The notes under the pieces: model-generated
What the model was told of the DNA's origin: nothing
Database searches by the model: none
The model's input: the letters and a program-made list of their open reading frames with translations, nothing else
Program-made: the position numbers and the translations under genes
Assembly: GCF_010389155.1 (NCBI RefSeq)
Contig: NC_057767.1
Span: 21,835,723 to 21,899,722, forward strand
From: Erigeron canadensis
Taxonomy: Eukaryota > Streptophyta > Magnoliopsida > Asterales > Asteraceae
Reading direction: 5' to 3'
Length of the DNA: 64,000 nt
Part shown: positions 3-54,154 of the stretch, in pieces
Layout: each line of letters begins with the position of its first letter
Position numbering within the stretch: the first letter of the stretch is position 1

Positions 3-3000
3 GTGATGGAAGATCAACCGACTGTGAGGACTCCGGTTACCCAACCGGAACCGGCGGCGACACCTGAGGCTAAGCCATATAAGCCCAAGGTTCCATTTCC
101 ACAGCGGTTCAGGAAGGCCAAATTAAAGGAACAATATGATAAATTTGTTAACATGATTAAAAATGTTCATATTAATGTGCCTTTAGTTGATTTGATACAG
201 GGAATGCCCAACTATGCGAAGTTTATCAAGGAACTCCTTACGGACAAGGGGAAGATGGATGAGGTGAAGGCGACATATCTCAATGCTGAGTGTTCTGCTA
301 TCTTGCAGAATCAACAGATTCTGCCTAAGCTTGAGGATCCAGGGAGTTTTCTTATAACTTATTCCATTCGTACTTTGACTTGTAAGGCTTTAGCAGATTT
401 AGGTGCAAGTATTAATTTGATGCCTTACTCGGTTTGGAGTAAGTTGGCTTCCGGTATCCTGAGACCCACTCGTATAGGTATAAGACTAGCTGACCACTCT
501 TTTCAGTATCCCATTGGGATTGCTGAGAACATGACTGTCCAAGTTGGTCATATAGTCTTTCTTGTTGATTTTGTGATCCTGGAAATGGAAAAAGACACTA
601 AGGTACCGTTGATTTTGGGTAGACCATTCCTTAACACCGCGGATGCTATCATCCGGGTGAAAGATAAGGAAATTTCATTGCGTGTGGGTACGGATAGAAT
701 AGTGTTTAATGTTGAACGATCTATTAAGCATTCTTACTCAACTGATGAATCTTGTTTCAGGATTGACGTCATCGATGATGCTTTGGATCAAGAGTTTCAG
801 GAGTTCATGGAGACAGAAGTTGATGAGGAGCTAGTTTGCTTGGGAGCTGGGGACATTGGTGATGATGACTTGTTTGCAGAGGTGATGGTGCTTGATATGG
901 ATGAGACACCTCCAGAAATTGAGAGCTTTGAAAAGGTCGTTGCTGATGGGAGCTCAAGGGTTCCAAACTCGGTTGATGTACCCCCTACTGATCTGGAGCT
1001 CAAGCCATTGCCTGCCCACTTGGAGTATGCTTACTTGGCAGGTAAATCCTCTTTACCCGTTGTCATCTCGTCCGCACTTTCGAGTGACGAGAAGAATCTT
1101 CTTTTAGCCGTGCTTAGAGCTCATAAGCGGGCTTTTGCTTGGAAAACCACCAACATTCCAGGTATTAGCCCTGATTTTTGCATGCATAAGATAGATTTTG
1201 TTGATGATGCTAAGCCCGTTGTCCAGAGACAAAGGAGGCTTAACCCGAATATGAAGGAGGTGGTCAAGAAAGAGGTGATTAAGCTCTTAGATGCAGGGAT
1301 CATTTTTCCCATTGCTGATAGTTCTTGGGTAAGTCCCGTCCACTGTGTCCCAAAAATGGGGGGCATGACGGTCATCAAAAATGAAAATAATGAACTTTTG
1401 GCCACTAGGACTGTCACGAGTTGGCGGGTTTGCATAGATTACCGTAAGTTGAATGATGCCACCCGTAAGGATCATTTTCCCCTCCCTTTTATTGATCAAA
1501 TGTTGGAAAGACTTGCCGGAAATGCATATTTTTGTTTCTTGGATGGGTTCTCCGGGTATTTTCAAATACCCATCGACCCGAAAGACCAAGAAAAGACCAC
1601 TTTCACATGCCCATTTGGCACCTTTGCTTACCGGTGAATGCCGTTTGGTTTGTGTAATGCCCCGGGCACCTTCCAAAGGTGCATGATAGCTATTTTCCAG
1701 GACATGCTTGAAACCTCAATGGAGGTTTTCATGGATGATTTCTCGGTTTTCGGGGATTCCTTTAGGTCTTGTTTGCATAACCTAGATAAGATGTTGACTA
1801 GGTGTGAAAAGGCTCGTCTAGTTTTGAATTGGGAGAAGTGTCACTTCATGGTGACCGAGGGAATTGTCCTAGGTCATAAGGTGTCTAGGGCCGGAATAGA
1901 AGTGGATAGGGCTAAGATTGATGTGATAGCCAAGTTACCCCCACCTTCAAATGTGAAAGGGGTACGTAGTTTCCTTGGCCATGCCGGTTTCTACCGGAGA
2001 TTCATTAAAGATTTCTCTAAGATTACTCGTCCGATGACCCACTTGTTGGAGAAGGACGTCCCTTTTGTTTTTGATGAATCTTGTTTAAGTGCTTTTCAGG
2101 TATTGAAGGATAAGTTGACCAATTCTCCCATTATGGTGGGACCGGATTGGAACTTACCGTTTGAGCTTATGTGTGACGCTAGTGACTATGCGGTTGGAGT
2201 TGTGCTTGGGCAAAGGGATGATAAGCATTTCAAGCCAATTTACTATTCTAGTAAAACCTTGAATCCCGCCCAGCAAAACTACACCACTACAGAGAAGGAG
2301 TTAGTAGAGGTAGTCTTTGCATTTGATAAGTTTCGGTCATATCTTGTACTAAGTAAAACTGTTGTTTTCACTGACCACTCTGCTTTGAAGTATTTGTTTT
2401 CTAAGCAAGATGCAAAGCCTAGATTGATTCGATGGATTCTGTTGTTGCAAGAATTTGATATCGAAATCAAGGATAAGAAAGGTGCCGAGAACTTAGCTGC
2501 TAATCATTTGAGCCGATTAGAGGACCCGAACCGGGAGGAGCTTCAAGATGGGGAGATTAAGGATCACTTCCCCGATGAATATTTGAATTTCATTTCTAGT
2601 TCTGATGAAGCCCCTTGGTTTGCTAATGTTGCTAATTATTTGGTTGCAGGTGAAATACCAAATGATTTCTCGGGTCAACAGAAGAAGAAGCTCATATCGG
2701 ACGCTAAGCATTATTACTGGGATAACCCATATCTGTTTAGAATTTGTGCAGATGGTATGGTCAGGAGATGCGTTGCAGGAGCTGAGACTAGAGAGATTTT
2801 GGATGCTTGCCATTACGGGCCAACCGGAGGTCACTATGGTCCGTCAGTTACAGGTAGAAAGGTTTTTGATGCAGGTTTCTATTGGCCGACAATCTTCAAA
2901 GAGGCCCAAACGTTGGTTGAGACTTGTGACATTTGCCAACACCAAGGAAGCATCACAAAAAGGGATGAAATGCCACAGCAAGGGATTCAGGTATGTGAAG

Positions 3001-3905
3001 TTTTCGATATTTGGGGCATAGACTTCATGGGACCATTCCCACCGTCTAACAAGTCCCAGTACATCCTAGTTGCTGTTGACTACGTGTCTAAGTGGGCTGA
3101 AGCCAAGGCTTTGCCTACAAACGACGCGCGGGTAGTCATAGATTTTTTAAAACAGTTGTTCAGTAGGTTTGGTTGCCCTAGAGCCTTAATTAGTGATCGT
3201 GGAACACATTTTGCTAATCATCAGTTAGATAAGGTTCTTAAACGTTATGGTGTTCATCATTACTTTTCAACTTCTTATCACCCACAGACCAGTGGTCAAG
3301 TGGAGAACACCAATAGGGCGTTGAAAAGAATTTTGGAAAAAACGGTCGGGGATAACCCCAAGGTTTGGTCAAAAAATTTAGATGACGCCTTGTGGGCGTT
3401 TAGGACCGCTTTTAAGATGCCTATTGGCACGACGCCATATAAGTTGCTCTACGGTAAGAATTGCCATTTGCCAATTGAATTAGAGCATAAGGCGTATTGG
3501 GCTTTGAGGAATTTGAATTTAGACATGATGGAGGCCGGTGAACTTAGGTTGTTACAACTCCATGAGCTCGATGAGCTTAGATTAGGAGCTTATGAAAATT
3601 CTCGGCTTTACAAAGTAAAGACCAAACTTTATCATGACAAAAGGATCCGTAGGAAAGAATTTAAGGTTGGCGGCAAGGTTTTGTTGTTTTTGTCAAAGTT
3701 TAAAATCAAACAACCTAAATTGACTTCCAGGTGGATAGGTCCTTTTGTGATTAAGTATGTTTACCCATCCGGGTATGTTGAATTGTTTAAAAGGGATGGA
3801 AATGGGTCTTTTATTGTTAATGGTCATCGTTTGAAATTGTATGTGGAAGAAGAACAGGAGGAAGGGACGATTGAGGAGGTCCCCATTTTCAAATCGGAAA
3901 CTTGA
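3..3905 (+). pseudogene. pol: Athila pol polyprotein (PR-RT-RNase H-integrase), interrupted
   Basis: Two same-frame segments, 3-1637 and 1638-3905, separated by TGA at 1635-1637. Segment 1: protease with catalytic DLGAS (residues 132-136), then RT up to the FAYR box. Segment 2 continues RT with MPFGLCNAP at its first residues and FMDDF (31-35). RNase H has Asp180, Glu219 and Asp246, but the final position, normally Asp in the ADHLSR motif, is Asn289. Integrase has the HHCC zinc finger (His392, His399, Cys430, Cys433), the core triad Asp462, Asp520 and Glu556 with the D,D35E spacing, and a C-terminal GPF-type tail. The stop lies in the conserved FAYR-x-MPFG motif, where Arg is usual; a CGA to TGA change at a CpG would explain it. 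The left end is open because the window begins inside the polyprotein. Confidence 0.92.
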
Positions 3906-4118
3906 AAAGTGATCGAGTCTAGCTCATGACTCGTAAATAAATTAAGCGCTTCTTGGGAGGCAACCCGTGTTTTACTTGTTTTTATTTTCTTAGTTAGTTT
4001 AACCATGTTTGGTCCAGAAAAGTGCAGGTGCAAGTTTTGAGCTACATTGGATGGAGGTAAGTATGTTTTCAAAAATTTTCTAAGGAAAAAATAAGGGGGC
4101 ATGAACAGTGAAAAAGAC

Positions 4119-4293
4119 CTGCGACGCAGTGGAAGTAGGTAAGCCCACTGCGCCGCAGTCTTCTTTGAAGGAGCTGGGTATCGTTATTTTTTCACCCCAA
4201 CACTGCGCCGCACCTCTTATTCCATGAGAAAAAGCTTATTTTTGATCCACTGCGCCGCAGTGGGTACGGGTAACAACCACTGCGCCGCAGTGG
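4119..4293 (+). repeat. Palindromic motif array 1 (CACTGCGMCGCAGTG), 5 copies
   Basis: Copies at 4119-4132 (A-type centre), 4145-4159, 4201-4212 (half lost), 4247-4263 and 4277-4293 (C-type centre). Each is an inverted repeat of seven or eight bases about one central base. The array lies between the end of pol and the env-position ORF. The sequence after it (4320-4460) looks like a plant mRNA leader, pyrimidine- and adenine-rich. A regulatory role is inferred only. Confidence 0.85.
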
Positions 4294-4861
4294 ATTGTTG
4301 ACTGGTCAAAAGGGGCCACGGGTTGGATAAGGTAAAAAGGGAGGATGTCTTTTTCACCACATAAGTTCAAAACATCTTTTTCTTCCCCTCTTGTCTGACC
4401 GAACGGAAGCAAGGAAACAAAGAAAAACAAAATTTTAAACCCCCTGAAATCTCCATCAAGGTTTGCATTTTTCTTCCTCTTTGTCTTAGATTATCATTCA
4501 TCCGTCATTACCATGGGAAAAGAGGTTAGATTTCTTTACTTTTCTCTTTATCTTCTTCATTTTGAATTTTTGAATTTTTAGGTTTTACTCTAAATTAGTT
4601 AGTGGGTTTTGTTGGTTTGGTAATGTTGAGGCTAATGGTGTGCTTGGTCTCATGGATTAAACACTTGTTCACCCGAATTTGAATCAAAATCGAATCCAGG
4701 GTTTTGGAAAATTAGGGCTTTTTGATGAACAAGTGTGGGGAAAGATTAAGGGTAAATTGTACGTTGATTGTTGTCTGTTGATTGCTAGTGCATTAGTAGT
4801 TACCTATAATTTTGTGGTTGCTTGTCATGTTTGGATGAAGAACTTGCCCAGAAACCTAACA
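4294..4861 (+). other. Non-coding leader-like stretch between pol and the env-position ORF
   Basis: No supported ORF. It has a CT-rich leader-like part (4360-4500), a possible splice donor at 4461 (AAG|GTTTGC) and T-rich sequence after it. With the acceptor at 5082-5083 this could delimit an intron upstream of the env-position ORF; that is inference. Confidence 0.4.
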
Positions 4862-4983
4862 CACTGCGACGCAGTGAGGTTGTGTATATTCCACTGCACC
4901 GCAGTGGTTGGTGTATGACCCGTACATGACTCGCCACACTGCGACGCAGTGAGTGAGCGTCTGAGCCCACTGTGCCGCAGTGG
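4862..4983 (+). repeat. Palindromic motif array 2, 4 copies in A/C/A/C order
   Basis: Copies at 4862-4876 (A), 4891-4907 (C-type with one G to A change), 4937-4951 (A) and 4967-4983 (C-type with one C to T change). The two A/C pairs are 75 bp apart. Both deviations from consensus are transitions within CpG, as expected of methylated DNA. The array ends 118 bp before the ATG of the env-position ORF. Confidence 0.85.
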
Positions 4984-5081
4984 GTGTAATTGACCATTTA
5001 GTTTGTTGGGGTTTCTTGCTTAAACGAGTTGGTTTCACCATTTTTGTCCCTCATATGCGTATGTTTTGATGTTGATTTTGC

Positions 5082-5083
5082 AG
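5082..5083 (+). promoter_or_regulatory. Candidate 3' splice acceptor before the env-position ORF
   Basis: A T-rich run ends in TTTTGCAG, with AG at 5082-5083, 18 bp before the ATG at 5102. Env-position genes of plant Athila elements are thought to be made from spliced RNA, so this site is plausible; no transcript evidence is available here. Confidence 0.4.
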
Positions 5084-5101
5084 ACCGCAACACAAAGGAA
5101 G

Positions 5102-6814
5102 ATGGAAGCGGGACAAGGGAGTGGAACTAGCAAAACATCGGCCAAGAGAGCTAGACAAGAACCGGAAATACCGACTTTGAGTTTTGGGGAAGAAGACATG
5201 AATGAGACACATGAATGGCTGGAATTTAGGGGGGCAAAGAAACCTCACAAGAATAACTTTCTTAACAAGCTTTACACCCTTCATAGACAAGTGGTTTGTC
5301 CCCCTAAGTACCTTGATCCTATTTTTTCTAGAACTTATGGTGTGCAACAAGACATCCGTAGGTGGTTTACCATAGAAGTGCAAGTTGGTGATCGAGTGGT
5401 TAGTAGTGACATGTGGCATAACATCTTTAATAGTCGCGAACCATCGTTTCGTGAGTTATGTCTTGAGTTTTATTCCTCGTTGAAATTGACCAAGGATTTG
5501 AATAAGGTGAAGAATATCTTTGAAGAACAAATTGTTACTTTCATATGTGGTGGGCAGGCTAGAAAATTGTCTATTCCTGAGTTTGGATTTTACTGTGGCA
5601 TGTATACAAGAGAATAGTTGGATGACCCGGATTTTCGAGGTTTGTTGCGTAAAGGTTTGTTTGTGAAGCAAGATTTAGGGGATGGCGAGACCATTAATCA
5701 GTATTGGGATCGCATCTCGGGAGGAGTAAATTGGCCTATTGGTGGTACTGTGAGTGTTACGAAGATTAGAAGTGTGAAGTTGAGATTGTTGCATCGAATG
5801 ATTGTTACTTTTCTTGTGCATCGGTCGACTCATTGGGATAAGGCTTATAAGTGGGATTTGTGGTTAATGAAGTTATTCACTGAGGGAGCCCCGAGGAGAT
5901 TTGCATTGGCACCTGCAGTGGTTCTTGACCGGATGGTTAATCATTCGGATTCCCAGTTAGTTCTTGGGCATTTTATCACTCGTCTTTGTAAGTGTATGGG
6001 GGTTTTTGATTCGGATGTTTGTCATGAAGGTTTGTCTTTACCAGTTCGACCGGAACATTTGACGGAAAAGGAGTTGATCATAGCTAAGATTGTGAAGAAA
6101 CCAAGGAAGAATGAGCAGGCATGTTTGTTGGAGGATACCGGTGCTATTGGTGCAACACCACCGATTGTGGAGGATGTGGAGATGGATGATGCTCCTCAGG
6201 AGCAGCCTAGGACTCGTGCTCGTACTATACCTGTTCCTCGTTCTTTTGATCTTACATTACTTGGGCAGATGATCCAGAACATCTATGAGGGCCAGCAACA
6301 AAGTCAGAGGGCTTTTGATGAGTACCAGCGCCGCATGGATCAGGAGGTTACTTGGTTAGGATCTCAGCAGTCCCATGTTGATTATACACTAGGGTACTAC
6401 CAGCCCATGTGGCAGGCCCAGTTCGAGGGATGCGAGTATGTCAGACCAGCACAGATCCCTCATTTCAGCCCTCCTCCCATCCAGGTTCCTGAATATCGTT
6501 AGGGTGGTAGTTCCTTCTTTCCCATGACTGCACCAGGGGTTGTATCACCACGTCCCCATGTTTTAGGAGGCTCTCCTCACGAGCCAGTACAGTTTCAGGA
6601 TGTTGGTGCTTCTTCTTCTTTAGCTGGTGGTGTATTTGCAGGTACTAGAGCAGATTTCGCTGAGTACGCGAGTGGTTCTGGAGGATTTGCAGCAGGAGGA
6701 GCTCAAGGGGAGGCAGGTTTTGGTGGCTCAGGGTCGGGACAGGAAGGCGAGAGTAACTGGGTGACAGATCTCTTTTCACCGCCCAGTTTCATGCGTCCCG
6801 GCCATTATGATTGA
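5102..6814 (+). pseudogene. Athila env-position ORF, two in-frame stops
   Basis: One reading frame of about 570 codons from ATG 5102 to TGA 6812-6814, broken by TAG at 5615-5617 and TAG at 6500-6502. The N-terminus is Ser/Thr/Lys/Arg-rich (residues 1-25). The central part is helical with many Trp and Arg residues and resembles the 'ATHILA ORF-1 / putative plant transposon protein' families of plant genomes (recognised by style, not by search). The C-terminal third is rich in Gln, Pro, Gly and Ser with a GGFAAGG-like low-complexity tail. I see no clear signal peptide or membrane anchor, so calling it an envelope protein would rest on position only. The start at 5102 is preferred over 5066 because it follows the candidate splice acceptor. 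Either TAG could come from CAG by C to T change. Confidence 0.75.
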
Positions 6815-9275
6815 TTATGCTACAGAGGTGATGACTTCCGTCCGGCACCGTGGGATGGGGTCATATGATGGTTATTTGGTATTCATTCACGTTGGTATTT
6901 TGGATGAATGTATTATACACTAATTCTCTCTTCCTTCTTTATTTCTGTAGTATCCACCCTACGGGGTGATGAGACATTGAACTTGTTCTGTTTTATTTTC
7001 TTAGGATTGTATGTTGGTTGCAAGAACAATAGGTTGTTATGGTGCTTATTATTATGACTTGATTGTTGATGTGTTATGAAGCAGGTATGGATGGTTGTAG
7101 TTCCACCCAAGTGTGGGGGGGACCCCTTGATTGTTGATTGTGTGATGACATGTATATGTTGGCAGTAAGTTCAGCGCCGCATTGTGTTTGGTATGTTTGA
7201 TGTATTCGATTCTCGCACCTTCAGTTTTGGTACAAGTTGTTTATCCCGCCAACCAAAGTGTCCTTCCTATTTTGGAAGTGCCATTTGTGACACGGGGTTG
7301 ATAACTTTTACCAAAACGGATTGTGTCCTTGTTCCGGTATGTGCTCTATTTATCGATTTCGCTTACCCCTATTTCCTTTTGTGACCAAATATGGACATTG
7401 AGGGCATTGTCCATCTTAAGTGTGGGGGGGGGGGGTGGCAAATAGGTTTAAGCTACCGGGTATATCACTTTTGTTGTTTTGTCATTGAGATTCCTATCGG
7501 TTTCGTTGATATGTCCCTCTCATAGGCCTTTGGATTCTATCTAGGGGTTTGAGTTTCTCTTTTGAACTCTTAACTGTGATGTGCATGTTTGAAACTGGTA
7601 TTATCAATTTGGCGGGATAATAGAAGCTGATATTGATTTTTAAACTTGAGTTGAACTTGTCCTTGTGGTAAATTGCTTTTGACACCTAATTGATTACTTA
7701 ATAAGCAATTTTACTACAAACTGTTTCCTTGACAAAAATTTTTAATTGGCGAAGTGTGTCCTGAACGGTTATTTGGCTAGTCCTCCGGGATTGATAACAT
7801 TACTTGCATACTCATATATATCCAAAACACCCAAATGTGAGATTTCATCATTTCATATATAGTTGTTTAGGTGACGGTTTTGGTTTGTTTGCCTCGTAAA
7901 TACATCCCTCTCTTAGGCTCTTGGATTTATTCGGGAGTAAGGGTATTCATTTTTTATACCTTGCACTAGGATGTGCGAGTTTGAGGTATTTCTAAGCCAT
8001 TTCCGAGTTCTTCTATTGATGAGAGTGTGCAGGTGATGTGTTGATTCTAGAACTTGGCCTGGTGATCGTGACGAGTACATTGGATGACGAATTGGCATTT
8101 AGGTTTGACCACACATCTTTCTTTCTTTCTTTCAAATTTTCTTTTGTATATCCACACCCTTATACAACCTTATACAATTATACATACAACTTTTCACCTT
8201 TCCTTGTACATTCACATATCCTTGTAACTTAACAACTCCACTGTAAATTCCCATTCATACTTGTAAACTAAACCTCACTATACCTATAATCTGGGGGGCC
8301 GTTGATTGTCATGGTTTGTTTGGATGATTTGGGAGAGTTTCATGGGTTGATTTGTGAAATATTCTTGTCTATGAGAATACGTGAACGGGTTAAGTTATTG
8401 AAGATTATCTTGGATTGTTCAAACAAAGAAAGTGAAGTGTTATAGACATGTTTATCATTGTAAGAGATCATTGTAGAGTAAAAATGGTTCAAAAAGAATA
8501 AAGAGAATGGAAAAATAGAAAAATATAAAAAAAAAAAGAGAACTCGGGCTACTAGTAGATATTTCTCAGTTCCAAATGTCTAGAAAGTTTGTTGTATTAT
8601 TTTGGAGGATTTGGTTGTTTGTAAGTTGTTTGAAGTTGATACACCACAATGGTGTCGGGTTTTGCTTGGCTAATTTGGGGGGGGGGGGGTGTTCGCGGAT
8701 GGCGGCTTTGGGTTGGTGGTTTGATGACAATCAATGGTATGGGTTTATATTAGACTAGTTTGTGCACTTAACATATCCATTATATACTTTTTCATTTTTC
8801 ACAATTATCATCAACGTTCATCAATAAATTCCATTTGAACATATTCATATAACTAGCCTTACTTTAACTATACACCCGTCCTCAATGCCTATTTTGACGA
8901 TGTATTCGATCCTTGCGCCGTAATGGTGAAGTGACGATCCTAGTTCAAGCCTATGGTAAAAGAGTATACATCATAACTAAGCTATGAGGGATTCTTCATA
9001 TATTCAACACCAAATGTAAGTTTGTTGGAGTAGAATGATATTGGTAGGATCATTTGTTTCATTTATGCTTAGTTGATTATCGTGGCTTACGGATTGTTCA
9101 GGTATTGTCAAACATTTCGAGTTTTCATTTAAGATTAAAACCGCTTCATCAGCCTTATTGTCATTTGACATGCATGGTGTTGCTTCTTTTTGAAACTTGT
9201 CATTTGTTTTGATAGTTTGATTGTCAAGGAATACTTTACTTAAAGTTCGGATTTTCTTGAAGACAAGCAATGCTC
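6815..9275 (+). other. Athila 3' untranslated region
   Basis: About 2.5 kb without a supported ORF between the env-position ORF and the LTR. It contains G-run motifs resembling the polypurine tract: AAGTGTGGGGGG at 7109-7121, AAGTGTG followed by a run of 12 G at 7418-7437, and G-runs near 8291 and 8678. The motif adjoining the LTR (9276-9290) is the one in the right place to prime plus-strand synthesis. Confidence 0.6.
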
Positions 9276-9290
9276 AAGTGTGGGGGAATT
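9276..9290 (+). promoter_or_regulatory. Polypurine tract (PPT)
   Basis: AAGTGTGGGGGAATT sits directly before the LTR start TGATGTG. Purine-rich sequence at this place primes plus-strand DNA synthesis in LTR retroelements. Confidence 0.75.
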
Positions 9291-9554
9291 TGATGTGACT
9301 AATTTATACTCATTACCCACATCATTATTGGCCATATATTTACATGTTTTAAATCGATTTTATGTGCATTTGGTGCGTTTATGGTGTTTGTTAGTGTTTT
9401 CAGGCGCTTAACAGGTTACGTGTTCATTTGTCATATTTTCGGATGATTTTTGGCCAAAATGAAGATTCTGGATGTCGAGAGTCAATTCAAGTAGAAGTGA
9501 AGGTGTGATTTGATGTTAAAAGTTGAAAAAGATAAGTTGGCGAACTTGTAGCAG

Positions 9555-9841
9555 ACTGCGACACAGTGGGGGTAGACTTATGCCCACTGCGCCGCAGTGG
9601 TGACTCTTACACGAGTAAGCCTTTGGTCAGAAGATTTGGCGTGCGACGCAGTGGTTGGTACCATGTCCACTGCGCCACGATCATCGAAGGTCAACAAGGA
9701 TTTTTAGTCAAAGAATTGACTGCGACGCAGTCAAAGCCACACGAGGAGACTGCGCCGCAGTGGAATGAAGGCAAAGCGCTTACATAGTCAGTGAAAATGA
9801 CCTGCGACGCAGTGGATCCTCCAATGGTCACTGCGCCGCAC
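9555..9841 (+). repeat. Palindromic motif array 3 in U3, 8 copies (A/C pairs)
   Basis: Four A-type copies (centres about 9561, 9648, 9725, 9808) alternate with four C-type copies (about 9592, 9674, 9757, 9836), so pairs repeat every 77-87 bp. The second member follows the first by 26-32 bp. Sequence between palindromes is not obviously conserved. The array ends 56 bp before the TATA box, where enhancer boxes of LTR promoters usually lie. Some copies carry transitions in CpG (GACGCAG to GACACAG). Confidence 0.87.
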
Positions 9842-9896
9842 TGAAAGACGAATCTGGAGGATTTTTGGCCGACTTACACATCAGATTTCAAGGGGG

Positions 9897-9905
9897 TATA
9901 AATAC
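9897..9905 (+). promoter_or_regulatory. LTR TATA box
   Basis: TATAAATAC within GGGGGTATAAATACAAACCC. Transcription would be expected to start near 9930. It is the only good TATA box in the U3 half of the LTR. Confidence 0.65.
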
Positions 9906-10955
9906 AAACCCTAGAACGAATTTTTCTGCATTCAAACTCTTTCTAGGAGCTGCTATACAAGGATTCTTCCTTCTCCAATCAAGTGATTCACTTAGGCGGA
10001 TTCATCGAAGATATTACGAGCACCCATCTAGATTGTATCTACATTATTGTCTTGCAATTTATTTTCTTCAAACAATTGGTACATCATGTTTCTTTTCTAT
10101 TTCTTTGATTACTTTGAATTGATCATGAGTGACTAACTGTTTAATCATCCACCTTGATAAAACGAGACGGATAATGTGATTGCTACATTTTTAATTCAAA
10201 AGGGTTTATTTAATTATCGTTGTTCCGTGATCTTGAAGATTTTAATTCTTTTCATTTAATTAAAATCGATATTGGTTGCATATGATTTTTCGTTGGTGGT
10301 ACCAGTAGAATGTGTATGTGATTTTAAAACGGTTACTTGTCTATAAGTAATTATGACTAGTGCATGGTATGATAGTGAATATCATTTTAAGAAAAGATTA
10401 AATTTGTCAACGTGATTGATATCGGTTGGTGGTACCACGTTATTGTCACATAGGTTCAATTGATAATTTGATAAGTAAATAAAAACTGATTGTTAGGAGA
10501 ATTGACTTGGTCTTGGTGGTACCGGCTTGGGTAATTCAACTAGTAGTTAGGTGATTCGATAATATGTTCATGGATGGTGGTACCACGTGAGTAGTATAAT
10601 CTTGTCACGACTATCTTTCAAACTCTAAAGAATTTGTTCCTCATCAAATGCAATCACATTTGAAGTCAAGGGAAGTCAAGGTGGATGACTTTTAATTATA
10701 TCGTCTGAATTTGTCTTTAATTTTATGCAATCAATTTGCAAATCAATTTGTTTAATTGTCAAGGGGAATTTCGAGCAACACCTGTTTTTCCAAACCATTT
10801 AACAAGCAACTAATCATTTCACAGTCCCTGAGAACGAACTCAGACTTACCTCTTTGCTATATTACAAACGATCAGGTCCACTACCCGTGAGTGCGTAGTA
10901 GTTAGTTCTTTGGTAGTTTTAGTTTACAAATATTAAAGCTCGATTTTGCACATCA

Positions 10956-11365
10956 ATAACTTATGTGTTATTTTACTTAGCTAATTCGTTAGCTAACACT
11001 TGCTCTTTTAAATGTGTTGTGCCCTCAGGTCCAACAATAGTGAGCAGGTAGATGTGAGAAGATGTGAGGCATGGGTAGATGATCTAGAAGCTAGCTATAG
11101 TTTACCCATAGTGTCTGCTCGCTTTAGACATTTGCTTTATGTTTAAATATTAATGACTTGTATTGATAATGTACTCGGTTGTTTAATGTTGGGCAACCGA
11201 TGGATTTCCATTTAGACTTATTTTGATGATATGGCTAGTAACACCATTTAATGAATAACCCAAACAGATTTTACTGGTTTGGACTTTTAAAGTTAATTCC
11301 GCTTCTTTTAACGCTGTTAGGCAAAAGTTTTTGGAAATCCTTGTTTTTAAATGACGGGTGTTACA
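10956..11365 (+). repeat. 5' LTR of the non-coding element, 3' portion
   Basis: Ends GGGTGTTACA, the complement of TGTAACAYCC at the start of its partner at 15286. The first 217 bp match 17252-17468; the last 193 bp are missing from the partner. The upstream remainder would lie left of the Athila insertion, outside the window. Confidence 0.75.
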
Positions 11366-11368
11366 AGT

Positions 11369-16640: not shown

Positions 16641-17468
16641 GGCTTGTTCATCTAGTTCACTAGACTTATTCAGTTGCCATGACACGTGCACGTTTAAAGG
16701 CCCAAACGTAATGATGTATATGTGATGATTGTTTAGGTTGTGTAAACACCTAAACTATATGTAATGTGAAATCGAGCTCGTAAATTTGATGTGAAAGTGT
16801 TAAGCTTAACCCGTACTTGCCCTAGCCCGGTTAAGTGTGTTGATGTGGTTGCTCGGGTGGCTCCTTGCAACGAGGTATAACGTGAAGAGTAATACGGAAG
16901 GTCTTACGAGCCCCATTGTCATTGAACATACGGATTACTCCTGGATTGGCTTGCCATTCCTTAACGACATTGATGTACTACTGAATGGTGGTTCATCTAG
17001 TCGGGTGTGACTTATGTCACACTTAACGAGATGCATATGTTATATGAGATGTGTGACTTTTGTTACAATTATAAAGATGTTCAAATGTGATATGTGATGA
17101 TGCAAAATATGACTAGACACATTTAGGATGACCCATCCTAATATGAATGATGTTGATGATATGATATGTAAGTATGATGATATGTTTGAGGATATGTGCC
17201 TTAACGACTTAATATGACTTTTATATAATGTTTTAAAAGGACAAACGTTTTATAACTTATGTGTTATCTTACTTAGCTAATTCGTTAGCTAACACTTGCT
17301 CTTTTAAATGTGTTGTGCCCTCAGGTCCAACAATAGTGAGCAGGTAGATGTGAGAAGATGTGAGGCATGGGTAGATGATCTTGAAGCTAGCTATAGTTTA
17401 CCCATAGTGGCTGCTCGCTTTAGACATTTGCTTTATGTTTAAATATTAATGACTTGTATTGATAATGT

Positions 17469-37291: not shown

Positions 37292-38483
37292 TGAATTTAA
37301 ACTATAAAATTTTGCCAATCTTGTTAAAACTAAAAGTTTAATAATAACAACGATATAAATAAGTAAAAATAATGATAAAAAGATAAGAATTATTAATATA
37401 TTGTAATAATAAGAATATACTAGTATATAATAATGATAAAACAATAAAAAAAAAATAATGTAAATATTAAACAATATAAAAGAATAATATAAATAATAAT
37501 ATTAAGATAATTTATAATATACTAAAAAAGTATATGAATGTACAAGACTTTATGCGTGAAATGTACAAGTTTTTATATCATATAGAAATTTTTACCATTT
37601 TTCATTTTTATATAATAAAAAATTATATAAATAATAATAATAAGATAATATATACTAATATTGATAAAAATGTAAATAATGATAATTATAATAATTTTAT
37701 TATAATAATTATAACTATAATAAAAATAGTAATAATAATAGCATAAGCAATAATATATGATATTTGCTTAAAGGCTTTCAGGTAACTTTGTAAACATTCT
37801 ATTGAAATGTTTAGACATTTCATTCATTTTATGATGAATTGAATTTCATGATTTAAAAAATTTAAGAGAAATTTTACAATTTCAATTACATCAATTTTCT
37901 CAACCAAATATGGTAAATGGTGAAATGCAAATTTTCATTTCTATAATTTCTTAAGAATTTAATGAAACAAAAACCCCTTTAATAATCCACCAAATAACAC
38001 AACAACTTAATTAATTAGAAGTAAAACATTTGCTCCTCAAATACGAAACCAAGTTTTCTCGATACATACTCACTAAGAGACTTGGGATACCACTAAGTCA
38101 TTACCACAATTTATTGGTTTAGTGTTAAAAAGATGCATTATGTCGACATTTACATTTGAATTTAATTATTTCGTTATTCCATTATTTTATTATTCTGGCA
38201 TAGTGTATTGGTTGCGTACCAATGGTTTTTAATTACACCAAATATATTAATTTGAATTTAGATATAATCTTTGTGGTGATACCAAATATCTAATTTACCG
38301 TTAAAATAGCTTGCGTGGCCTTGAAATCAAGGTGTTAATTGGATCTATAATTTTTTGATAGATTACTCTTAAAAAAAGTAGGCCCACGAAAGCACATAGA
38401 TTTTCCACTTTTTAGATAATCTATAAAATATTGTACCTTGCAAATTAACCATTTTATTGCTTCCTACTTGACAACATGCTCCC
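37261..38483. other. Intergenic DNA upstream of the P450
   Basis: A TA run, then very A/T-rich AATAATAAT sequence (37300-37750) without genes, then ordinary intergenic sequence that would hold the P450 promoter (about 37980-38483). Confidence 0.5.
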
Positions 38484-38491
38484 TATATAAA
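38484..38491 (+). promoter_or_regulatory. TATA box of the P450 gene
   Basis: TATATAAA in CTCCCTATATAAACAACC, 53 bp before the ATG, with a C/A-rich leader (38500-38543) after it. The ATG context is CTCCATGGC, favourable for plants. Confidence 0.7.
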
Positions 38492-38543
38492 CAACCATCT
38501 TTCCATCAACTTTTATCCCACAACCCCTCATCACATATACTCC

Positions 38544-40906
38544 ATGGCAATAACCATAAGCTCCTTTCCATATGAAGATACGATTACTTGGTTGGCTCTT
38601 ACTTACTTTAGTATTCTTGAAACTTATAACTTGAATATCACTTATGTATTGTTATATGCTGTAATAGCATTTACTACTTTTGGGGTTTTAACATGGACTT
38701 TATCATCTCATGGGGGTCCAGCATGGAAAAATGGCCGCAACCATATGGGCCATATTTCCATTCCGAGCCCATTAGGACTTCCCGTCTTTGGGAGCTTACC
38801 AAGTTTGGTTCATGAACTACCTCATCGAACTCTTGCAAAGATGGCTCATACTAGCCAAGCAGCCACACAACTCATGGCTATTAGCTTAGGGTCGACCCCA
38901 ACCGTGGTGGCCTCAGACCCACAAACTGCTCGTGAAATCTTGACTTCCCAGCACTTCAGTAACCGTCCGGTCAAGCAGTCGGCTAGGTTACTCATGTTTA
39001 ACCGAGCCATTGGATTTGCACCTAATGGAGCCTATTGGAGGCATTTGAGAAAAATTTCGTCGTCTCATCTCTTTGCTCCTAGGCACATTTTTGCACATGA
39101 ACAAGCACGCACGCTTGAATGCACCATTATGTTAAATGACATTCGTATCGAACAATCCATGAATGGCTTCGTAGTACTAAGAAAGCACTTGCAAGCGGCT
39201 TCTCTAAACAATATAATGGAAATTGTTTTTGGAAAAACCTATAACAAAGAAGCAGATTCTCATGAATTAAAGGAACTTCAAGAAATGGTTAGAGAAGGCT
39301 TTCAATTATTAGGGGCATTCAACTGGTCCGATCATTTACCATGGTTGGACTATTTTTATGACCCTTTTCGTATCAAGGAACGATGTATGGCTCTTGTCCC
39401 TCGAGTCAAAAAGTTTGTCCAAGGGATTATCGACGAACATAAGCTCAAAGGCAGTCAAAATCTCCATGACACATCCGACTTTGTTGATGTTTTACTCTCT
39501 TTAGATGGAGAAGAGAAGCCTAGTGAGGATGATATGGTGGCCATCCTATGGGTTAGTATACCTTTCCAATAATTAATTATAACATATTATTAACATGCCT
39601 TTCAATTTTCGGTTGGCAACGAGTTTTATTAATTAATTAAAATAGTGTGTGATACTCACACAACCATTAAGATACTCGGAAATCATTACATGTTACATGG
39701 GAACGTACTAAAAGACTAAAAATCGTCATAGGTCCCCTCATATACGTGGGGTCATTTACCCTTAGATTATATTTTCTTTGCAAGTATCCAGGGAATGTCC
39801 TTTTTACGACATACTATTATTTTTATTGTGGACCTTACCACTTGTCGAAATAGCTATAAACAAATCATTTTAGGATCTTTGTTACCGACCAAATATATTT
39901 GAGAGATGAAGGTTTGCGTGTGTATCAATCAACTATTTGTTATTTATTTTTTTATTTTTTACTATTATTATTTTTTAAATTAACTATTTGTTAATTAATA
40001 AATAAATCATGATTTAAAGTTTCTTTAATATACCCATACTAGCTCTCATTTTCTTCTGTAGGTTCCCATACAAAAAACAAATTACACATTTACTTTGGAC
40101 ATTAATTATATACCGCGTATGTATAATAAAAAGTGCTTTTATATATAGGTAATGTTGTTTTGTGGTCAAATATATAGCTATCTTGTATATTCTTTAATTT
40201 CCCATTATTATCCTTGCCATGTACAACAATATATCAAGCTTTAATTTCTCTAATTTAACATATTTATTTTATATGGAATATTTAGGAGATGGTATTTCGA
40301 GGCACCGATACGATTGCTCTATTAACCGAATGGGTCATGTCTGAATTGGTACTAAATCAAGATATTCAATCGAAGCTCCGTTTCGAACTTGACAATGTTA
40401 TGGGCAACAAAAACCTTGATGATGCTAAAATAACAAAACTTCCTTATCTTCAAGCTGTTATTAAAGAAACCCTTCGACTTCACCCACCCGGGCCTCTACT
40501 ATCATGGGCGCGTCTATCTACATCCGATGTCTATCTCACAAACGGCATGGTCATCCCGGCCAACACTACTGCCATGGTAAACATGTGGGCAATTACACAT
40601 AATCCCGACATATGGGAAAACCCTTTTGTTTTTGAGCCAGAGAGGTTCTTACCGTCGGCCGGTGGTTTTAATGTGGATGTAAGGGGTAGTGACCTTCGGC
40701 TTGCTCCATTTGGGGCAGGCCGTAGGGCTTGCCCTGGTATGAACCTTGGCATGGTTACAGTTAGCCAGTGGGTGGCTAAGTTGGTTCATAATTTTGAATG
40801 GGTTCAAGACATGGCTCATCCTGTTGACCTAAGAGAGGTGCTCAAGCTTTCTTGTGAAATGAAGGAACCGCTTTGCGCAAAAGTTATTCCAAGGAATGAA
40901 GCTTAA
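38544..40906 (+). CDS. Cytochrome P450, CYP78A-like, two exons
   Basis: Exons 38544-39551 and 40286-40906, phase-0 GT-AG intron of 734 bp (TGG|GTTAGT ... TTTAG|GAGATG), giving about 542 residues, normal for CYP78A. N-terminal ER anchor (about residues 27-52), then a proline hinge ([12 protein letters not shown], about 73-84). Typical CYP78A blocks follow: [20 protein letters not shown] and [13 protein letters not shown]. Exon 2 has the I-helix oxygen-binding motif with GTDT (342-345), ExxR as ETLR (397-400), FEPERF (452-457) and the haem loop [10 protein letters not shown] with Cys485. All key P450 residues are present. CYP78A enzymes (KLUH and relatives) are ER mono-oxygenases that promote organ, seed and leaf growth; their substrate is still unclear. 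The single intron at this place is normal for the family. Subfamily member not assigned. Confidence 0.92.
39552..40285 (+). other. P450 intron
   Basis: AT-rich 734-bp intron with conventional GT and AG ends. It contains no recognised element. Confidence 0.85.
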
Positions 40907-43209: not shown

Positions 43210-45720
43210 TTAACACTTTGGCATATCCGGTGGTGGAGGCAACATTCTTGCGTTTGCATTCTTTCCGTTCCTTACTATAAATACCATCTCCATCCCCCAG
43301 CTAACATGACGCTCAAAATGACAATGCATGAACCATACTCCTGATCAATTTTTCAAATGTAACAAAATATTAATTACAATGAATATATTTAATTAAATAA
43401 TTAATGTATGCACACTCTTATAATTAGCTAATTAATTAATTAACGTTATTACAAATTAAGGACTTTACCAGGGTTGTTTGCTCTGAATCTTATAGCTGTC
43501 CAACCATTTTGTGGAACCGCAATCGTCTGCTGAAGGGGAGGGTCGACTAGATTGTACCTCAAAGGATCTCGCTGTCGATCAAAGTTTCCAAATCCGGAAC
43601 CAACAACGTAGAAACTATGTCCATGTAAATGCATGGGATGCTCTATTCCTGAAACCACGTTTGTTCCTTGGAAAACAAGCTCCACTGTATCATTATACTT
43701 CAATATTTTTACCTCCGTCCCATTCCTTGGAGTTTGTAACGACGTAGTCAAATTATTCGCCGTGTAGTTGAAGCTAAAAGGAGGATTATCAGGAAAGTCA
43801 TCCCCATAAACACCGTTGATTCTACGGTAGTAAGCTCCAAGAATAGAAGTTTTGGGAGTATCAAATGTGATGTTGTTTATGCTTGCAGCAAACCTCCTTC
43901 TTTGTGGTCCCTCGCATACGGTGTTATTAGCACAAGGCAATGTGTTAATCGAGAGGGTGTACATTAACTTCCTTGTGATTGATAGTGGAACGTCGATTGG
44001 ATACTCATTGTTTGCTAAACTTCTTAGGCTACTAGTAAAGTTAAAAGATGCATTTCGGTCATCAAAAGCAGGAAGTGTAGGTGAAATGGGTGAAGACGAT
44101 GATGTCATGTTTTTGCTATTGTACTCAATGATGGCTGTGGTGGTGTTCCTATTGAATTGACTACGAGGGTTGCTATTATAGAACTTTGCAGCCATATAAT
44201 AGCGATTGTTGGCCGGCTGGTTTGCCTCTAACAAGACATCAATTGTTTGTCCTGGAGATATAGTCAAATAATTGGTTTTTAGCGGCTTTGTGTACGCTCC
44301 ATCAGTACCTACGACAGTAAGTTGATGGTTTGCGATTGCGAAAAATATGATGTTGTTCATAGCAGCATTAACCATTCGGAGCATGTACGTCTTTCCTCGA
44401 TCAACCTTTACTTTGAATGTGTCTGCACAATACATAGCTGTAAGTAGCTAGCTAGCTAGGTAGATTTAATACAGACAGAAATATTTACGTCCAAAGTCAG
44501 AAGAAAAAGACTTTAAAAGTCAAACTATGAATTTATGACATTTAAAATAGGATAGAGGGAGTACAAATTTAGTGTCTCTAATACTAAAACGACAAGACGA
44601 GAAACAATGGAGAGACCTGGGCGAGAGCAATTGTAAATATCGCCTGGTTGACCGTTAACTGTTAGAGCATCAGAGATAGCCGGATCACCTCCTCTACGCA
44701 AGAAGTCTTCCAACACTGTTTGTATATCATTTTTCCACCACTCACCTGCATTTCCAATAACTCATTAATATAACTTACAAATTATATGAACTTACATATT
44801 TATTTAAATGACAAATGTATGTGTTGAGAGCAAATGAAGAATTTGCGAAATGATTAACTAGCTAGTATAATACCTAATATGACCGGAACCTCTGCATGAG
44901 GCTTAGGGAATGGAAATGTAGTTCCAAGCTTGGGAGACACAACTAGTAAACCATGTACGGTGGCTCGAGACCAGTCACTATGTGCGTGCCACCATAATGT
45001 TCCTTCCTCATCAGAGAGGATAATCCTCTGGCTAAAGCGAGAACCAGGCTGAATCGGACATTGTGTGATAAACTCGGGTCCATCAGACCATGGATACCGA
45101 GGTAGTTTCACTCCATGCCTATAGTTAATACGAGTAACATACAACTCATGATGTTAGCCAAAATAATTAACACTTTGTTTGTAAGGTGTCGTTCTAAGAT
45201 ACGAAAGTGAATATACCAATGAATCGTGATATTTTGGGTCCCTTGGTTGATAACATCAACGATAACAGTGTCTCCTTTACGAGCAGATATAGTCGGACCA
45301 GGGTATTGTCCATTGACTGTCAAAATGTTCTTGCTGCTACACAGTCTCGTGTAGTTAGTTTCTTGAACCTGCAAACAAAAAACTTTCCATTATAGCTCAA
45401 TGGCTGAGTACCAGCTTTATATGCTGGAGGTCTCGAGTTCGAGACATGGGAAAGACATTTAAAGGAATTTCAAAAAATCTAATAATTAAGTAAGCTACTT
45501 GCATATAACAATATAATATTAACAAAGCTGCACAACACAAAGCTAGCCTAGCTAGCTACTATAGGTACCAATGCAGTACCGGGGACTAACTTGTTTTTTG
45601 ACACAAAGCTAGGGAGCTTACCACAAACGTATATCGAACCAAAGCTGCGTGTGATTGAACGGAACCAAGAATCACTATGAGCCATAGAACTAGAAGATGC
45701 ACATTCATGGCTATCTTCAT
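43210..45720 (-). CDS. Laccase (multicopper oxidase), LAC14/15-like, six exons
   Basis: Exons in transcript order: 45720-45622, 45368-45217, 45118-44874, 44745-44617, 44422-43469, 43340-43210, all with GT-AG introns; total 1,710 bp, 569 residues, normal for plant laccases. N-terminal signal peptide (hydrophobic about 8-22) predicts secretion. Copper ligands: His83-Trp-His85-Gly, WWHAHSDW with His128 and His130, [10 protein letters not shown] in exon 5, and HCH(532-534)...His538 with Met543 at the type-1 axial position where many plant laccases have Leu. The [15 protein letters not shown] block resembles the LAC14/15 (TT10) clade. Laccases oxidise phenolics and monolignols in the cell wall; LAC15 acts on seed-coat flavonoids. 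Substrate here is not predictable. Exon junctions at TG|G and G|GT match those of the partial copy at 50795. The gene looks intact. Confidence 0.9.
45383..45470 (+). mobile_element. tRNA-like SINE fragment immediately upstream of exon 2 in intron 1
   Basis: TAGCTCAATGGCTGAGTACC resembles a tRNA A-box region and GGTCTCGAGTTCGAGAC a B-box region. It lies in antisense to the laccase, within its 253-bp intron 1 (45369-45621), and explains part of that intron. No tail or target duplication was found. Confidence 0.6.
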
Positions 45721-51125: not shown

Positions 51126-51336
51126 GAAGGTTACCACAGATCTAACTTTTTCAGTATATATGTTCGCCTTGGTCATTGCCAAAAACTAAAACTAGATATT
51201 CTTGGTCAACCTCTTTTGTATGTCTGACATGGAAGGTTACCACAGATCTAACTTTTTCAGTATATATGTTCGCCTTGGTCATTGCCAAAAACTAAAACTA
51301 GATATTCTTGGTCAACCTCTTTTGTATGTCTGACAT
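51126..51336. repeat. Tandem duplication, 106 bp x 2, in laccase intron 5
   Basis: GAAGGTTACCACAGATCTAA starts the units at 51126 and 51232; the second ends about one base short. The two look nearly identical, so the event is recent. Confidence 0.85.
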
Positions 51337-51941: not shown

Positions 51942-54154
51942 AATACACATGATACTTTTGAAAAGAACTTACTATCTGCAAAAGTTGTAAAAATTAAAAT
52001 ACAAGGCTTCTGGATTGATCATTCAAACTCACCAGGATTATTGGCCTTGAACCTTATGGTAGTCCAGCCATTTTTAGGAACTGTAATAGTCTGTTGAAGA
52101 GGAGGATCCACCAGATTATAACTCATTGGATCTTTACTTCTATTGAAGTTACCAAATCCCCATCCAACAACATAGAAACTATGCCCATGTAAATGCATAG
52201 GATGATCAATTCCAGCAACAAGGTTAGTTCCTTGAAACACCAACTCCACATTGTCGCCGTACTCTAGTACTTCTGCTTCTGTAGCATTCAGTGGAGTTTC
52301 TAATGATCTACTAAGATTACTAGCCGTGAAGTTGAAAAATAAAGGTGGGAAATTTGGAAACTCGTCTCCATAAACACCGTTAATTCTTCCATAATAAGCA
52401 TCAAGGACCGAGATGTTTGGTGAATTAAATGATATGTTGTTTACACTTGCAGCAAACCTCAAACCTCTGGGTCCTAAACATGTATTACCTGGGCATGGCA
52501 CTGTGTTAATAGACATTGTGAACAAAAAGTGTCGTGTAATCTTCATTGGAACGTCAATAGGATGAGCACGACTAGCTAAACTCCTAAGCCTTCCTGTGAA
52601 ATTAACCGATGCACTAGTGTCATTGACCTTAGGAAGATGGGGGAACATAGGAGGAGTTGATGAGTTTTTGTAGCCTTTGTATTCAATAATAGCTGTTGTA
52701 CTTGTGTTATCGAAACTAATGAGTGGCTGGCTATTGTATGGTTTAGCTTCAATGTAATATCGACCTATGGGTTGGTTGGCTTTCACTAAGAGATCAATGG
52801 TTTGACCAGGGGCGATTACCACGTAATCACTCTTAAGTGGCTTGGTGTATGCTCCATCAGTTCCTACAACAGTAACTTCATGGCCTCCGATCCCCCAAAA
52901 CATAAACAGGTTCATTGCAGCATTGACCATTCGGAACATATAAGTCTTTCCATATTCCACAATGAACTTGGTTGTCTCTGAAACACATGTTATAACATAT
53001 ATACCATAAGATAACAGATTAACAACTCTTTCAAATTACAGATGCAAGTATGATAATAAGTTACATTAATAGATTTAATAACAATTTTATGTATATCTTT
53101 CAAAATTTCAAATATTGTATGCACCTGACTAATTAAAAGCTTGCAAAATGACAACCGAGTACATACAATGCTCAAAATTTTGAAAGTTAAATACATACAA
53201 TGAATACAGTTATAGTTGGATATATACTATAGACAATCGTGTATATTTAGATAAAACATTATCCCTAAAAATAATAAAGAAAGCTAATTACCTGAACTTG
53301 AGCAGGGGTATAGATCACCAGGTTGGCCATTGATGGTTAAAGCATCAGAACTATTAGGATCTCCTCCTGTTCTCATGAAATCTAGTAACACTGCCTCAAC
53401 ATCTTGCCTCCACCATTCAGCTGCATTTTTGATTCAATGACAATTATAGTTTTTTTTTCCAAGTATCGTACATATTATGTGTTGTTTAAATGTAATATTG
53501 ATAGTAAGTATTAAAGAGGAAAATTAACCTAGGATGATTGGATACTCGACATAAGGTTTAGGAAAAGGGTAAGGTCTTCCGATCTTTGGCCATATCACGA
53601 TTAGACCATGAACGGTGGCTCGAGACCAATCACTATGGGCGTGCCACCATAAAGTGCCTTCTTCATCTGAAAGAATAATCTTTTGACTAAAGTTGGCTCC
53701 TGACTGAATCGGGCATTGGGTGATAAATTCAGGACCATCTGACCATGGATACCTTGGTTGCTTCACTCCATGCCTGTAAGTAAGCTTTCTTTTAATATTA
53801 ATATATACAGTATAATTTACTGTGATCTTCAATACAATTATAAATCTTAATTAACGAATTATGTTCAAAAGATATATGAATAGTTGTATATTCAGTTTTA
53901 TATAATCATATTTCCCATAATTAAGCTTAAATGAATTTTCTATTATACAAATTTGAATATAACTACAATTGTAATACAAATTTTGCATAGATCATTCCCA
54001 AAACATCTTATTTGAACGTTATCAATTTATGAGAAACCACGCTATATGAGAATCATTCGCATATGAATATATGTAATATTAAGTATAATTTAATTTGTTC
54101 ATATCAATTTATCAAGATAACATAACAATTCTTATGTTTCTTTCGACTCAAACT

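Follow-up and report, generated by a model that had tools for sequence, protein, structure and literature searches.

What does a series of short palindromes do immediately upstream of a retrotransposon TATA box, and does the order of the bases at their centres matter? The question arises from a stretch of 64,000 nucleotides of Erigeron canadensis (hereafter the window, always meaning the whole stretch). A first-pass annotation made from its letters read the conservation of the palindromes but not of their spacers, in a fixed A-then-C order of centre bases, as a sign of selection on protein binding or on pairing between copies. The first half of that interpretation, the excess conservation of palindromes over spacers, stood up in our analysis; the fixed order did not.

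The palindrome array and its host element

The window contains the 3′ portion of a Ty3/gypsy element, namely pol, a noncoding stretch, an env-like ORF, a long linker and the 3′ LTR; the 5′ LTR falls outside the window. The features around the array are:

1638..3905, + strand: part of the pol ORF, with RT, RNase H and integrase in Ty3/gypsy order and no chromovirus SH3 domain
9275..9290, + strand: polypurine tract CAAGTGTGGGGGAATT, directly abutting the 3′ LTR
9291..10955, + strand: 3′ LTR of the Athila-like element, TGATGTG...CACATCA, 1665 bp
9554..9843, + strand: U3 palindrome array, eight copies in four A-then-C pairs
9554..9599, + strand: pair 1, 9554–9568 (A) and 9585–9599 (C), 31 bp apart
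9639..9682, + strand: pair 2, 9639–9653 (A) and 9668–9682 (C, 4 mismatches), 29 bp apart
9718..9762, + strand: pair 3, 9718–9732 (A) and 9748–9762 (C), 30 bp apart
9800..9843, + strand: pair 4, 9800–9814 (A) and 9829–9843 (C), 29 bp apart
9897..9903, + strand: TATA box, 53 bp beyond the U3 array

As in the Athila lineage, the pol of this element is of the Ty3/gypsy type without chromovirus domains, and an extra polypurine tract (PPT) lies upstream of the 3′ LTR; PPT-like CAAGTGTGGGG tracts occur at 4730, 7108, 7417 (with a mismatch) and 9275. Named proteins among the best 120 of 7979 pol relatives are mostly from Asteraceae. The LTR ends were seen again in 7 LTR copies, and 5-bp target duplications adjoin three LTRs (L111, L114 and L117). 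A search for TGGCGCCG, made with regard to the tRNA primer type, did not find it in the loci L102–L121. The Athila-like element itself seems to sit within the LTR of another element: the 217-bp stretches at 10956–11172 and 17252–17468 are 98.6% identical, and what we take to be a methionine-type primer site follows the first of them near 11367. Elsewhere in the window, two ORFs within 38472–40906 match consecutive parts of the cytochrome P450 profile and are probably two exons; on the − strand, a pair of multicopper oxidase (laccase-like) ORFs (43449–44447 and 52019–53035, ~69% DNA identity) represents a local gene duplication; and a 106-bp unit forms a perfect two-copy tandem repeat at 51126–51336. 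An Rfam scan of the window returned no match at gathering scores.

The eight U3 palindromes start at 9554, 9585, 9639, 9668, 9718, 9748, 9800 and 9829, with the centre bases A,C,A,C,A,C,A,C in that order. The first-pass description of four pairs beside the TATA box, each with A first and C second, thus holds for this 3′ LTR, and its pair repeat of 77–87 bp agrees with pair starts 85, 79 and 82 bp apart (31, 29, 30 and 29 bp within pairs); the distance to the TATA box, given there as 56 bp, needs correcting to the 53 bp listed above. Relative to CACTGCGNCGCAGTG, the copies carry 2, 0, 3, 4, 2, 1, 2 and 1 mismatches, so that the palindrome at 9585 is the only exact one in the U3 and that at 9668 is degenerate. 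The array has a GC content of 0.54 and a CpG o/e of 0.95, compared with 0.85–1.01 in the remaining LTR. At ≤3 mismatches, the window holds 16 matches where shuffles predict 0.17, and 9 of these 16 sit in two further arrays upstream of the U3 (4117–4292 and 4862–4982), bringing the palindromes in this part of the element to 17, eight of them in the U3.

Genome-wide, the motif occurs 8955 times in 426 Mb at ≤1 mismatch, against 7 occurrences of the reversed control. Together with the window shuffles, this control rules out a chance origin of the palindromes. In viral contigs, 93 stretches were retrieved; each of the 80 listed has a single palindrome, approximately the chance level by our estimate, and no relatives were seen. 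A protein search in other species with the translated array of locus L105 gave 12 candidates, none at E ≤ 1.

Conservation, spacing and the centre base

To compare palindromes with their surroundings, regions were labelled on one sequence and transferred to the others. In the first such test, 7 of the LTRs were Athila-like and 12 chromovirus-like, taken from 20 loci fetched for perfect palindromes (L102–L121), excluding L102, L106, L112, L118, the first array of L104, the second of L108 and the third of L121; ten further loci (L122–L131) were fetched for exact A-then-C pairs, two of which, L123 and L130, represent pre-env arrays and do not enter the LTR counts. Across 14 Athila-like LTRs, identity was 0.896 in the palindrome arms and 0.427 in the spacers, with 0.728 in the upstream U3 and 0.643 downstream, and palindromes exceeded spacers in 180 of 182 ordered comparisons. 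The 12 chromovirus-like LTRs gave 0.931 for arms, 0.862 for centres, 0.668 for spacers, 0.698 upstream and 0.818 downstream. That palindromes are kept while spacers drift, as the first-pass annotation described, is thus borne out; the centre base is less conserved than the arms, with an identity of 0.778 in the Athila-like LTRs.

Since these loci were fetched by the motif itself, we also assembled an unbiased sample by R-U5 similarity, comprising the window LTR and 19 others at 95–97% identity (from 40 scored, out of 981 candidates). All 19, although chosen without the motif, carry arrays of 6–10 sites (≤4 mismatches), including 0–4 perfect sites per array, so the recurrence of the array is not an artefact of the motif search. 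The 20 LTRs split into two U3 types. Seven copies, including the window, have sites at distances of ~31, 53, 30, 50, 30, 53 and 30 bp (one, L133, has ten sites), and 13 copies with mainly C centres have distances of 29, 45, 31, 45, 29, 42 and 31 bp, a few lacking sites. Between the types, divergence is 5.8% in R-U5, 32% in the upstream U3, 64% in the spacers and 14% in the palindrome arms; the mainly-C copies, compared among themselves, show a smaller contrast (6.0% in the arms, 11.7% in the spacers and 16.9% in the upstream U3). The attachment of near-identical R-U5 sequences (95–97%) to two very different U3 types in L132–L151 amounts to intrafamily U3 swapping. If, as known from retroviruses, the first strand transfer during reverse transcription lets U3 and R-U5 recombine, U3/R-U5 mosaics of this kind would be expected.

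Spacing is similarly constrained. Exact pairs with spacers of 28–32 bp number 492 genome-wide, versus 9 with spacers of 18–27 bp. Among 198 clustered palindromes with ≤4 mismatches, taken from the 20 fetched loci and the window, neighbours lie mostly 29–32 bp (92 pairs) or 44–46 bp (48 pairs) apart; in Athila-like LTRs neighbouring sites are ~30 bp apart and the next 41–54 bp apart, and 14 chromovirus-like LTRs show exclusively 29–31 and 44–46 bp. Site number per array ranges from 4 to 10 in those tabulated. The TATA box lies 52–55 bp past the last site in 14/14 Athila-like LTRs and 52–54 bp past the array in 17 of the 19 R-U5-selected LTRs, no TATA match being found in the other two (L140 and L141).

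The 198 palindromes carry 172 arm mismatches, of which 72 are at the outermost position (50 of them C/G swaps) and 100 at the 12 inner arm positions, where C>T or G>A changes at CG/CHG sites make up 65. This pattern fits methylated, dead copies that would be decaying from a perfect site. Conservation among such copies would reflect the lineages that produced them, and dead copies cannot reveal present selection.

Centre bases behave differently from the arms. A-then-C in all four pairs is found in the window alone among the 20 LTRs of the R-U5 set; in its U3 type the first and last pairs are A-then-C in 7/7 copies and the second pair in three (the window, L133 and L143), other middle pairs being mostly C-then-C. 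The 13 mainly-C copies have C at 91 of 99 centres and A at none. Chromovirus-like arrays have mainly G in the sense orientation, with G-then-G in 32/38 pairs. In the fetched LTRs, C-then-C accounts for 29 of 49 pairs and A-then-C for 17, counts that are biased because L102–L131 were fetched by perfect palindromes or by A-then-C pairs. A fixed A-then-C order is therefore no rule of the family, most arrays being mainly C or, in the chromovirus-like LTRs, mainly G. Alternation of A and C as a code was rejected as a family rule on these counts, from both the fetched and the R-U5 sets. The order is nevertheless biased: at spacers of 13–17 bp, exact A-then-C pairs occur 67 times genome-wide (28 spacer sequences in 10 clusters) and C-then-A pairs 3 times, with 7 of the latter over spacers of 5–35 bp. 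We read the A/C centre as lineage history, inherited by certain U3 lineages and outside any code.

A second clade and the arrays before env

The same motif occurs in LTRs of a different clade. Ten of the 20 perfect-palindrome loci (L103, L104, L107–L110, L113, L115, L118 and L120) have a common ~2 kb LTR by blastn; of the other ten, six are Athila-like and L102, L105, L106 and L112 belong to related groups. The pol matched in L103, L107, L108 and L115 is 27–40% identical to that of the window, and L115, the one locus scanned, has SH3_Tf2-1 and RVP_2 domains. A TGGTATCA primer site, presumably of the initiator-methionine type, was seen in L104, L108 and L115. On these sequence features, we refer to the family as chromovirus-like. 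The array is found at the 3′ end of its LTR, 3–5 bp before a TATA match in 7/14 arrays and before an A-rich run without such a match in the other seven; whether it counts as U3 depends on the start site. In L104 (486–665), a further array of four palindromes lies beside a chromovirus-like LTR; read in the orientation that has a TATA 30 bp downstream, its centres are all A.

Do the arrays of the two clades have a common origin? Aligned with their palindromes masked, the spacers of Athila and chromovirus arrays scored 15.06 in the sense orientation, versus 12.60 (sd 0.21) for shuffles, none of 100 reaching it; the test is not clean, because the antisense control also beat its shuffles (14.60 versus 13.93, sd 0.21; 0/100). 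The best matches, selected post hoc, have 11–13 bases in common (for example ATCCCACGxAAAG), and of four such matches three lie at equal offset in both arrays, the exception being in an array without the first pair. A second chromovirus-like group (L102 and L106) showed no clear excess against Athila (5/100 sense and 47/100 antisense shuffles reached its score), but did so against the first chromovirus-like group, with 0/100 and 51/100. It is possible, though less likely than not, that Athila-like and chromovirus-like LTRs of this genome have exchanged an array of common origin, a portable promoter module that would place several lineages and, through an internal promoter, the env-like gene under one host factor.

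The nine palindromes upstream of the U3 lie between pol and the env-like ORF (4117–4982), in the following arrangement:

4117..4292, + strand: pre-env array 1, palindromes at 4117 (A), 4146 (C), 4201 (C), 4248 (C) and 4278 (C)
4298..4309, + strand: TTGACTGGTCAA, two opposed TTGAC cores, immediately 3′ of array 1
4327..4361, + strand: AT-rich stretch, then TTTTCACCACA, candidate env-like core promoter
4513..4524, + strand: predicted first exon of the env-like ORF, 4 codons, ATG at 4513–4515
4525..5083, + strand: predicted intron (GT...AG), containing the PPT-like tract 4730–4740 and array 2
4862..4982, + strand: pre-env array 2, palindromes at 4862 (A), 4892 (C), 4937 (A) and 4968 (C)
5084..6502, + strand: env-like ORF, putative exon 2, with one in-frame stop in the window copy

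Pre-env arrays are present in all five copies seen with the region (the window, L116, L119, L123 and L130), the last four having been fetched for holding the motif, and array 2 has a similar layout in all five, with four sites in four copies and six in L116. In L119 the first array looks interrupted by an insertion (~7340, − strand). Identity in three such regions is 0.867 in the arms and 0.584 in the spacers, a class that here takes in the whole stretch separating the two arrays; CpG o/e between the arrays is 0.38. Three aligned copies agree exactly in TTGACTGGTCA, which follows array 1 closely, and in TTTTCACCACA. We take the opposed TTGAC cores to be W-box-like, and the stretch between array 1 and the ATG looks like a promoter of the env-like gene, although 4327..4361 contains no canonical TATA. 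The ATG, the four-codon exon, the GT donor and the PPT-like tract align in three copies (the window and two others); the acceptor AG is present in each, that end being poorly aligned in L116. The PPT-like tract at 4730, within the predicted intron, recalls the multiple PPTs of Sireviruses. The second piece of the env-like ORF has five relatives at 48–63% identity, without useful names, and no Pfam match. This arrangement suggests that the env-like gene may have its own internal promoter/enhancer, derived from the pre-env arrays.

Function and comparison with known systems

What we observed directly is the motif itself, how its copies are spaced and placed, their excess conservation and their occurrence in two lineages. 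The reading that we consider probable is that the array serves as a promoter-proximal enhancer for a dimeric DNA-binding factor, probably of the host, which two Ty3/gypsy clades would use and which is apparently reused before env. Each 15-bp palindrome would be the binding site of a dimeric, sequence-specific protein; sites paired at ~30 bp, about three helical turns, would place two dimers on nearly one face of the DNA, with the last site kept 52–55 bp from the TATA box. Binding would activate transcription from the U3, and the sites before and within the predicted env intron may act as an internal promoter or enhancer. That one motif is common to two clades with very different pol makes a host factor more likely than the product of one element; we know of no factor for this motif. 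Several points count against this reading: the spacings of 42, 45 and 50–54 bp are not all whole helical turns, L140 and L141 lack a TATA match, palindromes of the mainly-C type differ from their spacers only modestly in divergence, conservation among dead copies says nothing of present selection, the candidate env promoter is without a canonical TATA, and the arrays fold strongly as RNA, which leaves room for an RNA role.

Strong folding raises the alternative that the palindrome pairs act as RNA or single-strand hairpins, giving RNA structure or small-RNA templates, as proposed for maize Sirevirus LTRs, where the accessible part of that work ties such structure to small RNAs (PMC10760457). 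Each of the three arrays has a better fold than any of 200 shuffles (z −5.20, −4.80 and −4.33), and the outermost bases are complementary more often across a pair (C/G 64, G/C 10, G/G 9 and C/C 1 in 92 pairs) than within one palindrome (C/G 139, G/C 8, C/C 16 and G/G 16; n = 198). Good folding is, however, expected of any palindrome array, and the covariation is not independent, because many of the compared copies are related. Given also that the centres of the common pairs (C/C, G/G and A/C) are mismatched and that an RNA role needs no fixed TATA distance, we regard hairpins as unlikely. A functionless array, in which tandem duplication, slippage and conversion between repeats spread the palindromes and kept them alike, would agree with the near uniformity of the centre base within many single copies and with the varying number of sites. 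Homogenisation of whole units would nevertheless have taken the spacers along, yet these diverge faster than other parts of the LTR, both in the 14 LTRs and between the U3 types (an argument limited by the mainly-C type, in which spacers are less diverged than the upstream U3), and spacing classes and TATA distance stay constant; we judge this account distinctly unlikely.

Other proteins or processes could also use the sites. Short motifs arrayed in noncoding DNA, with surroundings that change fast, resemble the targets of element-encoded anti-silencing proteins such as the VANC-bound arrays of Arabidopsis VANDAL elements, targets that the text available to us describes as rapidly diverging tandem repeats (PMC10398659). 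The motif is common to two clades, though, and the three L115 ORFs scanned gave gag, protease and pol domains or nothing, so that an anti-silencing factor would have to act across families, which makes this reading very unlikely. That the arrays position nucleosomes or guide integration instead of transcription seems hardly probable: a wheat LTR motif from another family has been proposed, in the part of the study available, to place nucleosomes (PMC11302176), and the seemingly insertion-cut array of L119 would suit integration, but the strict TATA distance and the pre-env position suit transcription better.

An enhancer bound by a host factor, which we continue to favour, would bear on how plant retrotransposons recruit host transcription and on how env-like genes behind pol are expressed. 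Because the motif can be named, is frequent, occurs in two clades and keeps a fixed distance to the TATA box, a direct search for the factor is feasible. The retention of palindromes amid changing spacers points to a control switch common to two distantly related families.

Among env-bearing Ty3/gypsy elements, Athila4 and Calypso have an extra PPT in the linker, and splice acceptors are predicted for the Athila env; the window element likewise has an extra PPT, besides its candidate env-like ORF. A partial literature survey on palindromes in Athila, Tekay or gypsy LTRs and on internal env promoters found no array of this kind; the 15-mer motif string was not found in the literature as far as it was covered, and 11-mer matches, in four papers, fell under titles unrelated to transposons. 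The accessible text of the Sirevirus study makes no mention of palindrome arrays in Athila4 or Calypso (PMC2829016). VANDAL elements, judging from the portion seen, also hold motif arrays in fast-changing noncoding DNA, but are transposons with their own anti-silencing protein. The RLG_Quinta LTR carries a 162-bp motif taken from RLC_Gisela and tied to CENH3 (PMC11302176, seen in part), and so is alike in having an LTR segment common to unrelated families; it differs in being a single motif and no palindrome array. In maize Sireviruses, CACCGGAC palindromes cluster in the LTR cis-regulatory region and are linked to small RNAs (PMC10760457, in the text available); the clustering in the LTR is shared, whereas superfamily and motif differ.

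Of known systems, the Sirevirus RM box comes closest, and the palindrome arrays may be seen as its counterpart. According to the accessible parts of Bousios et al. 2010 (PMC2829016), RM boxes are palindromic and CG-rich and number at least 8 per element; they cluster upstream of the TATA box in the LTR and occur again 5′ of the env gene, with diverged flanks. A regulatory function, together with an internal promoter for env, was put forward by the authors. Those boxes belong to Ty1/copia elements, have a CGG-CCG core in all but one case and were termed Sirevirus specific (PMC2829016). The window element matches this layout, as far as that text describes it, with eight palindromes upstream of the TATA box in U3 and nine before env. 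It differs in its carrier, a Ty3/gypsy element with RT, RNase H and integrase in one frame, in its CTGCG-N-CGCAG core, in the occurrence of one motif in two clades and in a spacing quantised near 30 and 41–54 bp. What is new here is thus an RM-like layout, in the LTR and 5′ of env, in Ty3/gypsy elements, with another core, quantised spacing and two clades, which suggests that elements other than Sireviruses also have palindrome boxes before both env and the promoter in the LTR.
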